Shown: one piece after another, positions 2,451-5,058 of the stretch
Layout: every line of letters begins with the position of its first letter
Position numbering within the stretch: position 1 is the first letter of the stretch
Source of the DNA: Treponema sp.
GTDB lineage: Bacteria > Spirochaetota > Spirochaetia > Treponematales > Treponemataceae
Length of the DNA stretch: 47,214 nt
Assembly: GCA_024695625.1 (NCBI GenBank)
Contig: JAILHV010000251.1
Span: 1-47,214, forward strand
Direction: 5' to 3'
Program-made: the position numbers and the translations under genes
The notes under the pieces: model-generated
Told to the model about the DNA's origin: nothing
The model's input: only the letters and a program-made list of their open reading frames with translations
Databases searched by the model: none

Positions 2451-4178
2451 CTACACCGAGGCTGAATCAAGCGGCTCTATTTCCTGCACAACTTCGTATG
2501 CATGCTGAATGCCGTTGCGGGCCTGAGCAAGCCTTTCGCGGAATTTCTTGTTGTCGTGACCTGCAATTTTTGCAAGGTTTGTAAGGGGGCCGTAATATGG
2601 AGTAACCTTTTCGCCAAGCATTCCGCCAATCAGGTCAACCATGCTGCGGCAAGCCTTTCCAAAGCCGTTCACAATCTCGCGGGCTGAATCCTCCACGTTT
2701 TCCATGAGGGAACTCAAGTCCTGCAACTCGCCCTTTCCAAAGTGCTCCACTCCGTCCCATGCACCGAACCTGATTCCAAATTCTCCGCCGGCAGATAGCT
2801 GGTTTGCAAACACATCCAACTTGTCTGCTACCGTGGCAAAGAGATTGAATGTATCCGTATACTCAAGGCGGTTCTGCCTAAGGGCAAATTCTCCTTCAAC
2901 GGCGGCTGTGTCAAGCGGAGGAAGGTAAAGCTTGTAGACATTCTTCATAAAGCCGTTTATGAATCCAATCGTAAGGTCGTAATGGAAGGAAACTGGCAGC
3001 CCAACAAAATTTACCCAGGGCCTAAAGGGGAACATGGGGAAATCCGCCATCTCAAAGTAACCCTTAATCTTTTCCTTTATCTTTTCCTTCTTGTAGTCGC
3101 GGTTCCACTGCTCCCACCTCTGGTCAAAGAGGGACTTCCACTTGGCCCTGTACCTGATGAGCCAGTCCTCACCTCCACCGTATGCCTCTGGCAAGTAGAG
3201 GGAGTTTTCAAAGACAACCTTTGCAAGGTTGAACATGGGAACGGTCTGGGCAAACATCTTTATGGCAGAAAATTCCCCTGCCGCGCTGTTCACAAAATCA
3301 GTTCCCGCCTGAGCCATCTGGTCAAGTGACTGGAAGCCGGATATGACGCCTCTGTGCTCGTTGAACATGTACAGCGTCTGGATAAGCTCGTCCGTAATCG
3401 GCACATAGTTGCACATGACGCGGGCAAATTCGGGGAAGTCGGACTTTATCTGCGAATAAAGGCTTTCCTTTGTGTTTGTCTCGGACTTGTAGAAGCGGGA
3501 AATCATCTTTCCAAAAGGAATTTTTACAAACTGCTTGAGCCATTCCACGCAGCGCACGCAGGCATAAACCTCGTTTTTCTTCTGCATTGGAATCTCGTCA
3601 AGTATTCCTTCCATCTTTGCGATGAGGGATGCCCTCATTTCCTTTGTAATAACCTTCTGGAATGAGTACTGGTAAGGGTCGGAAGCCTTTTCTATGCTTG
3701 CACCCACGTTAGGCATTATTATGTAGCCGAGTAAAATATAGAAGGAGTCGGGGTCAACTTCATAGGCCTGGATGGACGGCAGGAAGAAGTCCGCGCTCTT
3801 TTTAAGCTGCACAATCTTGTCGTAGAAGCCTTGAATCAGGGCCTTGCGCTTGTGGTCGATAAGGCCGGGGTATTCTTTTTCTATCCCCTTGGCAATCTGG
3901 TTCACAAGGAATTTGTTAAACACGTCATCTATAGAAGTATTGGTAATCGTTGCAAGCAGCCAGAGGAAAATCTGCCTAAAGAATGACTGCTTCTTGAACT
4001 GGGAATTCAGGTCGCTTTCGCCTTCGTTCTCTCCAGCATTCTGGTCGGGACCGTTCAGCTGGCCTGAGCCTACAGAACGCCCCTTCTTCATCTTGTTTAG
4101 CATCTGCTCACGTTCAGAAGTGCTTATTCCAACAACGAGATTATCAAACGTGGAATTTGTATTCGCTTTTTTTGCCAT
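2451..4178 (-). CDS. Conserved treponemal-type protein of unknown function
   Basis: A 575-residue protein that I can assign only tentatively to a Treponema-restricted family (possibly DUF5312). The N-terminal 60 residues are polar and look disordered, with a charged Asn/Glu-rich stretch. The remainder is predicted helical, with one moderately hydrophobic segment near residues 66-80 (FFRQIFLWLLATITN) and a second around 395-430. There is no signal peptide, P-loop or recognisable catalytic motif. The ATG follows AAGGAAGAG. It is the first gene of a transcription unit with pgeF, and its AT-rich upstream region is shared with the divergent tRNA promoter. Function is unknown. Confidence 0.75.
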   Translation of the reverse strand: MAKKANTNSTFDNLVVGISTSEREQMLNKMKKGRSVGSGQLNGPDQNAGENEGESDLNSQFKKQSFFRQIFLWLLATITNTSIDDVFNKFLVNQIAKGIEKEYPGLIDHKRKALIQGFYDKIVQLKKSADFFLPSIQAYEVDPDSFYILLGYIIMPNVGASIEKASDPYQYSFQKVITKEMRASLIAKMEGILDEIPMQKKNEVYACVRCVEWLKQFVKIPFGKMISRFYKSETNTKESLYSQIKSDFPEFARVMCNYVPITDELIQTLYMFNEHRGVISGFQSLDQMAQAGTDFVNSAAGEFSAIKMFAQTVPMFNLAKVVFENSLYLPEAYGGGEDWLIRYRAKWKSLFDQRWEQWNRDYKKEKIKEKIKGYFEMADFPMFPFRPWVNFVGLPVSFHYDLTIGFINGFMKNVYKLYLPPLDTAAVEGEFALRQNRLEYTDTFNLFATVADKLDVFANQLSAGGEFGIRFGAWDGVEHFGKGELQDLSSLMENVEDSAREIVNGFGKACRSMVDLIGGMLGEKVTPYYGPLTNLAKIAGHDNKKFRERLAQARNGIQHAYEVVQEIEPLDSASV

Positions 4179-4481: not shown

Positions 4482-4553
4482 GGTTGGTTCGTCTAACGGT
4501 TAGGACGAGAGATTCTCAATCTCTAAACACGGGTTCGATTCCCGTACCGACTA
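4482..4553 (+). tRNA. tRNA-Glu, anticodon CUC
   Basis: A complete cloverleaf. The acceptor stem pairs GGTTGGT with ACCGACT (two G-U pairs). The anticodon stem AGAGA/TCTCT holds the loop TTCTCAA, giving anticodon CTC, which reads GAG. The T arm is ACGGG-TTCGATT-CCCGT. The discriminator base is A and CCA is not encoded. The last 23 bases of the gene plus three bases of flank recur exactly at 4730-4755 and 4931-4956. Confidence 0.95.
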
Positions 4554-4618
4554 AATAGTTTCATAAAATTAGCAGACAAAGCAACCCTTTAAAAATCAAG
4601 CAAACATCTTAGCACCAA

Positions 4619-4741
4619 GGAATCAAACCGCGAAGTGAGCGCGCCGACAGGCGAAAAGGGCACACGGATGTGCCCGACAGCGAACGAAGCCGCCCCGGAG
4701 GGAGTGCACCAGGAAGTGCACGACCGTAGGGGTTCGATTCC
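4619..4741. repeat. 123-bp three-hairpin module, copy 1
   Basis: Bounded by GGAATCAAACC on the left and GGTTCGATTCC on the right, near-perfect inverted copies of a tRNA T arm. Inside are three hairpins: CGCC-GACA-GGCG (4642-4653), GGGCACA-CGGA-TGTGCCC (4658-4675) and GTGCAC-CAGGAA-GTGCAC (4704-4721). It differs from copy 2 at six positions by my alignment. Confidence 0.85.
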
Positions 4742-4819
4742 CGTACCGACTAAATCCCTCTCCGACTGTTAATCAATAAAAGCAAATCCTTAAAAAACAA
4801 GAAAGAAACTTAGCACCAC

Positions 4820-4942
4820 GGAATCGAACCGCGGAGTGAGCGCGCCGGCAGGCGAAAAGGGCACACGGATGTGCCCGACAGCGAACGGAGACGCCCCAGA
4901 GGGAGTGCACCAGGAAGTGCACGACCGTAGGGGTTCGATTCC
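4820..4942. repeat. 123-bp three-hairpin module, copy 2
   Basis: Same length and the same three hairpins as copy 1, and here the terminal inverted repeats are perfect (GGAATCGAACC and GGTTCGATTCC). A third, truncated copy begins at 5019 and stops at about 5052. There is no transposase or integrase nearby, so any mobility would have to act in trans. Confidence 0.85.
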
Positions 4943-5058
4943 CGTACCGACTAAATAGTTTCATAAAATTAGCAGACAAAGCAACCCTTTAAAAATCAAG
5001 CAAACATCTTAGCACCAAGGAATCGAACCGCGAAGTGAGCGCGCCGGCAGGCAGAATA

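Follow-up and report, generated by a model that had tools for sequence, protein, structure and literature searches.

Downstream of a tRNA-Glu gene in Treponema sp., the 3′ end of the tRNA recurs, which raises the question of what kind of DNA lies between the copies and how it came to be there. We addressed this in the window, the whole 47,214-nt stretch of contig JAILHV010000251.1 that was analysed. The 26-mer at 4531-4556, consisting of the last 23 bases of tRNA-Glu-CTC plus three more, has three exact + strand copies, which start at 4531, 4730 and 4931, and no further copies were detected on either strand of the window. A preliminary description, made from the letters alone, had reported exact copies at 4730-4755 and 4931-4956 and unit lengths of 199 and 201; the former were borne out by an exact repeat search and the latter by the measured spacings. 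The reading that we tentatively favour is that ~200-bp non-coding units beside spirochaete tRNA and tmRNA genes may move in the form of folded DNA, with target recognition predicted to run through an arm (X′) that is antisense to the T-arm of the host tRNA.

The tRNA-Glu array and the layout of a unit

Each unit comprises, in order, X0 (the tRNA 3′ end), a spacer that often contains a terminator, X′ (an inverted copy of the host tRNA T-arm), a structured core of ~100 nt, and X1 (a direct copy of the host tRNA 3′ end). Cores were scored with R1, a covariance model built on the core alone from five sequences, and with R2, a model built from 58 cores plus 3 nt on their right. The array in the window is laid out as follows:

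4482..4553, + strand: tRNA-Glu (CTC), the host gene of the array (ARAGORN; Rfam tRNA, 62.4 bits)
4531..4556, + strand: X0, the tRNA-Glu 3′ end plus 3 nt, copy 1 of the 26-mer (exact repeats)
4557..4618, + strand: unit 1 spacer, AT-rich, with no terminator by pattern scan, unlike the spacers of many relatives
4619..4629, - strand: unit 1 X′, inverted T-arm positions 52-62, with one mismatch to tRNA-Glu
4630..4729, + strand: unit 1 core (R1, 111.7 bits, a score that is not independent because the R1 training set included this core, among others; R2, 99.7 bits)
4730..4755, + strand: X1, copy 2 of the 26-mer, exact (exact repeats)
4756..4819, + strand: unit 2 spacer, AT-rich, unlike the spacers of units 1 and 3
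4820..4830, - strand: unit 2 X′, an exact inverted copy of T-arm positions 52-62
4831..4930, + strand: unit 2 core (R1, 105.2 bits)
4931..4956, + strand: X2, copy 3 of the 26-mer, exact (exact repeats)
4957..5018, + strand: unit 3 spacer, AT-rich, near-identical to the unit 1 spacer
5019..5029, - strand: unit 3 X′
5030..5052, + strand: unit 3 core, truncated, with the same truncation in relatives G081 and G140

The cores of units 1 and 2 share 95% identity. Over 4931-5052 (122 nt), unit 3 is 98% identical to unit 1, after which it breaks off within the core, and since this truncation is common to the window, G081 and G140, unit 3 is an old remnant. Chance repetition was ruled out by the exact 26-mers together with repeats of 122 and 178 nt. 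The view that these are cassette-like non-coding units, each ending in a tRNA 3′ segment, is supported by the exact repeats, and the 98% identity and the distinct unit 2 spacer agree with an AT-rich half that units 1 and 3 share and unit 2 has in another form. The interiors are no assortment of captured cassettes; one conserved hairpin core runs throughout and the AT-rich spacer alone varies. The interpretation given in the preliminary description is partly supported: site-specific capture by a recombinase is a candidate mechanism only, and unequal recombination can, judging from the near-identity of units 1 and 3, account for part of the array.

Beyond what had been described, X′, the inverted T-arm copy, lies directly left of each core in the window. 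With X′ on this side and the next X copy on the other, the core can close into one branched fold, and the fold of 4812-4956, computed as RNA, has a z-score of -4.0. The same genome carries related cores after tRNA-Thr(CGT), where two units stand in tandem, tRNA-Met and tRNA-Ala(GGC). Each of these copies is bounded by pieces of its own tRNA, an inverted part of the T-arm on the left and a copy of the 3′ end on the right, such that the core is similar throughout and the arms vary with the tRNA.

In the most compact units (L263, L275), X′ starts as close as ~5 nt past the tRNA end, and these forms indicate that the terminator of many units is optional. At single-unit loci the terminator is duplicated after X1 in some cases and not in others, so that the ends assigned to the putative mobile piece are provisional; the spacers after X0 and X1 are likewise alike in some and not in others, which bears on a target-site-duplication model. 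Identity between X1 and X0 can extend past the tRNA end into the flank, indicating that the copy was made from DNA and not from the mature tRNA.

Spread, genomic position and the structure of the core

R1 matched 101 of 146 genomes sampled from the genus Treponema, leaving 45 of 146 without a match under stricter filters, and R2, run with the same kind of filters, matched 83 of 392 genomes and 38 of 166 genera sampled from the phylum; such filters lose weak matches. This genus- and phylum-wide spread ruled out a duplication private to the tRNA-Glu locus. An exact-pattern scan of named genomes returned 30 stretches with titles that were all Treponema, Spirochaetaceae or Spirochaetales, among them Treponema berlinense ATCC BAA-909, Treponema sp. 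JC4 and Treponema sp. C6A8. Phage carriage was rejected since two exact-pattern scans of viral contigs, which divergent cores would escape, returned no core.

For analyses of position, two sets of loci were combined. From the first, 103 of 113 model matches were kept (dropping eight overlapping-locus duplicates, one opposite-strand match and one partial match), and from the second 62 of 63 (dropping one cut by a contig end); keeping only matches of 85-135 nt then gave 158 units. The fetched units are mostly the stronger model matches, and the genomes are mostly draft assemblies, in which arrays break contigs, so that unit counts are lower bounds.

Although R1 covers nothing but the core, first units, 100 of the 158, start 27-114 nt (median 75) past the end of a tRNA or tmRNA on the same strand. 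Their hosts are Thr-CGT (19), Met (14), Pro-TGG (12), Ala-GGC (10), Asn (9), tmRNA (7), Glu (6), Pro-CGG (6), Arg (4), Gln (4), Ala-CGC (3), Gly-TCC (2), Ser (2), Gly-CCC (1) and Ala-TGC (1). A further 35 units are later members of arrays, with 24 of the 35 spacings at 172-219 bp and only two above 1 kb (L093, L097), i.e. genes are rare in units. The remaining 23 lie at contig edges, have lost the first unit of their array, or follow a tRNA 3′ end that a larger island has displaced, and an upstream X copy of at least 9 nt was present in 19 of them (L162 being left uncounted as a contig-start artefact). Outside Treponema, we examined 35 of 40 matches, leaving out two duplicates and three weak ones: a tRNA or tmRNA lies at most 700 nt upstream on the same strand in 30 of the 35, and it is matched over at least 9 nt by X′ in 26 and by X1 in 27 of the 30 (counts without a control).

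The two long spacings have open reading frames between two units, identified by reading their translations only. At tRNA-Ala (L093:1096-1775) these are two frames, HicB- and HicA-like, and at tRNA-Met (L097:1295-3871) an AAA-ATPase-like and a phosphoesterase-like frame; both cases of cargo may be chance insertions. At a third locus (L107:552-9405) a unit follows a displaced tRNA-Ala 3′ half, with the intact tRNA-Ala 8.7 kb upstream, which suggests that a larger island was inserted at the anticodon loop on top of an array.

The core structure was evaluated in 70 diverse units, chosen, like the 58 used for R2, mostly from the 103 selected ones. Twenty of the 22 predicted pairs show two-sided changes. 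Paired cells make up 94.5% of 1513 compared to 68.6% after shuffling, two-sided cells number 393 compared to 111, and the covariation score is 0.667 compared to 0.204; none of 500 shuffles reached the observed pairing, two-sided or covariation values, and the number of further pair types was reached by 141 of 500. Sliding the structure along the alignment reduced pairing to 27-44%, a comparison that favours the original structure because it was derived from the same sequences. Wobble pairs are rare, with 19 G-T and 15 A-C among the 1513 cells; control tRNAs from the same loci have 214 G-T in 2523 cells, a control that is one-sided as ARAGORN draws G-T and no A-C. Pairing that is nearly free of wobble and symmetric between strands points to a structure that would matter in DNA.

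This bears directly on the idea that the units are functional RNAs controlling the tRNA, in which transcription runs past the terminator into X′ and the core, and pairing of X′ with the T-arm, in the tRNA precursor or in its mature form, regulates maturation or turnover. The units do lie on the same strand as the tRNA and fold strongly, and X′ is still antisense to the resident tRNA in units that lack X1 (L137, L138, L159). G-U pairs are present in most functional RNAs, however, and almost absent from the core pairs; terminators often stand between the tRNA and X′, 45 of the 146 genus genomes gave no match, and no Rfam family reaches threshold, so that we regard RNA-level control as quite unlikely. 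The Rfam search of the window returned only two tRNAs at the gathering threshold, with the units matching no family. A known RNA was rejected on this ground; the nearest match at E up to 5 was TD-2, which hit the repeat neighbouring the Ala unit and not the unit itself, below threshold (36.7 bits, cut-off 48.7).

tRNA-specific arms and differences in unit content

Both arms, mostly about 9-24 nt long, are specific for their own tRNA. The longest match of X′ averages 12.6 nt to its own tRNA and 5.5 nt to other isotypes, with 90 of 100 units beating 95% of the others, and the corresponding values for X1 are 17.9 nt, 5.6 nt and 92 of 100. In 36 of the 100 first units, the match of X′ to the tRNA extends more than 3 nt beyond its match to X1, and the reverse occurs in none, meaning that X′ covers T-arm bases absent from X1; by base matching, X′ is the antisense of the whole T-arm of the host tRNA, and it is predicted to be able to pair with X0.

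Where X0 and X1 differ, the sites at which X′ resembles one or the other number 74 for X0 and 2 for X1 (28 and 2 units), counted in the 97 of 100 first units with placed X′ and X1 and over at most six differing sites. Most of these sites, however, fall to the left of where X1 can first be recognised; restricted to X1 itself, a stricter count gave 9 sites for X0 and 2 for X1 (5 and 2 units; p 0.07). This suggests, without proving it, that X′ travels with X0 rather than with X1.

The register between the arms was scored in 87 of the 100 first units; among the 13 left unscored is the first unit of the window, where G's at the end of the core make the start of X1 ambiguous. The offset is exactly 2 nt, with X1 beginning inside X′, in 62 of the 87, and 25 have another register. 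The core-side boundary of X′ lies at tRNA position 54 for Pro, Arg, Asn, Gln, Gly, Ser, Ala-CGC, Ala-TGC and 12 of 13 Met units, at 47 or 48 for Thr-CGT, at 47 in 9 of 10 Ala-GGC units, at 52 for Glu and at 50 in 6 of 7 tmRNA units. Simple reading of the T-loop by a protein would be expected to mark the same position in every tRNA, and a register that shifts with the tRNA type would instead suit a base-pairing guide.

Cores at different tRNAs of the same genome share 0.740 identity (52 pairs), compared to 0.644 with permuted genome labels (0/2000), and cores at the same tRNA in different genomes share 0.670, compared to 0.646 (3/1000). In a core-to-core comparison of 96 of the 103 units, a Gln core (G024) and an Asn core (G076) are 92% identical, with different, tRNA-specific arms.

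Unit content also differs between close relatives. The preliminary description had proposed comparing unit number at tRNA-Glu, with a fixed number and diverged copies in distant treponemes speaking for an old, inactive duplication; in close relatives we found differing content instead. The window has two units and a remnant, the near relative G081 only the truncated remnant, and G110 no unit in the 900 nt read past the tRNA; in G140 the assembly breaks within a core, where one contig stops and another begins, indicating at least part of one further unit there. At tRNA-Thr, the genome of the window has two units, G140 a single one, and G081 and G110 damaged ones, and the G140 unit corresponds to the inner unit by its spacer and right flank, the cores being uninformative (0.960, 0.959). 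At tRNA-Ala(CGC), G081 has three units and the genome of the window a truncated one. These differences, as read from the sequences, would fit arrays that gain units next to the tRNA and lose them through truncation, and may also stem from unequal recombination. A clean empty site with both flanks was not found among the relatives compared, which have truncated units or different flanks.

The main rival explanation, which we consider possible yet somewhat doubtful, dispenses with a dedicated enzyme: host repair would have kept and reshaped old tandem duplications of the tRNA 3′ region, with gene conversion homogenising the cores, template switching at inverted repeats keeping X′ equal to the tRNA, and unequal crossing-over altering unit number. 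In line with this, units 1 and 3 of the window are near-identical, the two units of L066 are a simple tandem copy, several loci show joint duplication of terminator and X, X′ matches the full T-arm of the nearest tRNA, and no enzyme correlates with the units (see below). What host repair leaves unexplained is the first arrival of the same core at some 15 kinds of tRNA and tmRNA gene, as well as the dependence of the register on tRNA type.

A different type of element follows tRNA-Pro units (L066:1290-1365 and 898-972 on the - strand, also in L067 and L069). It combines an inverted piece of tRNA-Pro from just upstream of the T-loop (AACCCCCGACATCC) with another GC-rich core and then a short T-arm-like piece (GGTAAATCC), and is possibly a second family of the same design.

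Candidate enzymes, known systems and a possible route of movement

We compared the presence of units with that of recombinase and transposase families across the 146 genus genomes. Integron integrase (TIGR02249 above cut-off) occurs in 29 of 101 genomes with units and 15 of 45 others (p 0.57, with power limited by the drafts), Y1 in 31 of 101 and 10 of 45 (p 0.33; 41 of 146 in all), IS110 (DEDD recombinase, PF01548) in 32 of 101 and 12 of 45 (p 0.70), and reverse transcriptase in 27 of 101 and 13 of 45 (p 0.84). None of the four is present in 29 of the 101 genomes with units. As factors acting in trans they were therefore rejected, being patchy and uncorrelated with the units in a test limited by incomplete genomes.

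Only tyrosine recombinases, among the families tested, occur in every genome: PF00589 is found in 146 of 146, a family that includes housekeeping Xer proteins and so lends weak support. On this ground we predict that the unit enzyme is a tyrosine recombinase, Xer-like and acting in trans. Comparison of 2694 frames from the fetched unit loci with 20 reference recombinase and Y1 frames placed none inside a unit. It did identify one tyrosine recombinase 5′ of a unit-bearing tRNA, here tRNA-Asp (L270:33-1217), a XerA/integron-integrase-like protein (NF040815, 225.7 bits, cut-off 220) with an N-terminal extension of ~130 aa; as one case, it is a lead only. The integron integrase of the window's own genome (L134:272-1699, 422 bits) has an apparent N-terminal extension and sits on a contig of 4.6 kb in which no core was matched.

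Beside its Thr and Ala units, and also adjacent to intI, the genome of the window carries another GC-rich hairpin repeat (CCGATTGGAAGGGCG ... GGAACCCTGGAAAGCGGG and similar). The Thr-side copy has dozens of matching places in three relatives, and one copy is the sub-threshold TD-2 match noted above. The copies are:

L008:1734-1852, - strand: second GC-rich hairpin repeat
L010:1250-1430: second GC-rich hairpin repeat
L134:1560-1720 and 3700-3800: second GC-rich hairpin repeat

The same frame comparison revealed a single Y1 place 3′ of a unit (L039, L213, L243), ~1.1 kb away in L039, which is relevant to an IS200/IS605-like mode of movement. There, a Y1 HUH transposase provided in trans would cut the T-arm, X′ would be an extended guide to X0, and X1 the right cleavage site. 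IS200/IS605 and REP/RAYT elements have imperfect hairpins that act at the DNA level, and IS200/IS605 chooses its target by base pairing, the left guide of 4-5 nt pairing with the cleavage site. By analogy, the units resemble both in their DNA-level imperfect hairpin and might resemble IS200/IS605 in their guide-like arm, which lies left of the hairpin and could pair with the flank; orientation on one strand and tandem insertion would agree as well. The units differ, however, in sitting at tRNA and tmRNA 3′ ends, in having tRNA-specific arms mostly of 9-24 nt, not 4-5 nt, and in showing no link to Y1 in the co-occurrence test above, and we judge this route improbable.

Recombination of the IS110 bridge-RNA type, or target-primed reverse transcription, with X′ and the core serving as guide or template RNA, appears to us very improbable. 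The antisense arm, which spans the junction by 2 nt, would agree with it, but neither IS110 nor reverse transcriptase follows the units across genomes, wobble-free pairing speaks against RNA, and X1/X0 identity running into the flank indicates that DNA was copied instead of mature tRNA.

Among known systems, chromosomal integrons are known in Treponema, and attC sites have conserved GTT/AAC triplets in their R boxes (PMC3607928). The units are like integron cassettes in being small, arranged head to tail and equipped with a folded hairpin site kept by structure, and integron cassettes may lack an ORF; the folded DNA structure typical of attC was indeed found in the units, as the shuffles (0/500) and the wobble counts (G-T 19, A-C 15 of 1513) document. 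By contrast, the units show no link to IntI in co-occurrence across the draft genomes, their arrays start at a tRNA or tmRNA and not at attI beside intI, and their arms copy the host tRNA where attC sites share GTT/AAC boxes. X1 starts at C56, without the TT of GTTC, in most units outside Thr, Ala-GGC, Glu and tmRNA. An integron origin was rejected after R1 searches of 11 IntI loci with filters off gave nothing below E 0.89.

Genomic islands at tRNA genes regenerate the tRNA and leave a displaced 3′ fragment at their far end (PMC4383910). The units share the regenerated tRNA and the displaced fragment, X1 being specific for its own tRNA in 92 of 100, and target both tRNA and tmRNA genes. They differ in their size of ~200 bp without an integrase inside, the extra inverted arm, the tandem arrays, and a single core common to many tRNAs. 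In at least one defining property each, the units depart from tDNA islands, integron cassettes and IS200/IS605, and our searches of an open-access subset of the literature listed no description of such units. On the reading that we favour, they would form a new type of mobile cassette, one that can dock on a tRNA gene and leave it whole.

For the movement of units as folded DNA, targeted by X′, we propose the following route. The mobile piece would be X0-spacer-X′-core; it would enter at the T-arm carrying a tRNA 3′ end of its own, which would keep the tRNA complete and displace the resident 3′ end (X1) downstream, as with tDNA islands. X′ might pair the single-stranded cassette with the T-arm and thereby form or find a matching recombination site, similar to a folded integron attC, with the enzyme supplied in trans. 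Since the restored site could be used again, tandem arrays would grow at the tRNA end. In a more far-reaching version, which we consider unlikely, the unit would be a DNA-guided element whose rewritable antisense arm of 9-24 nt sends a folded single-stranded cassette to one tRNA or tmRNA gene, where it would adopt the arms of its new host and repair the gene it enters, allowing harmless phylum-wide spread over many tRNA genes.

If the favoured reading is true, spirochaetes carry very small cassettes distinct from islands, integron cassettes and insertion sequences alike, which settle on tRNA genes, left intact, by means of a tRNA-specific antisense arm and a DNA hairpin. Pairing of nucleic acids at the DNA level would then join the known ways of choosing an insertion site, and repeats and contig breaks beside tRNAs in Treponema assemblies would be accounted for; were the enzyme also found, the units could provide a programmable safe-harbour insertion system. 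Even with host repair alone, a phylum-wide element with tRNA-matching arms would be a testable case of coevolution at the DNA level.
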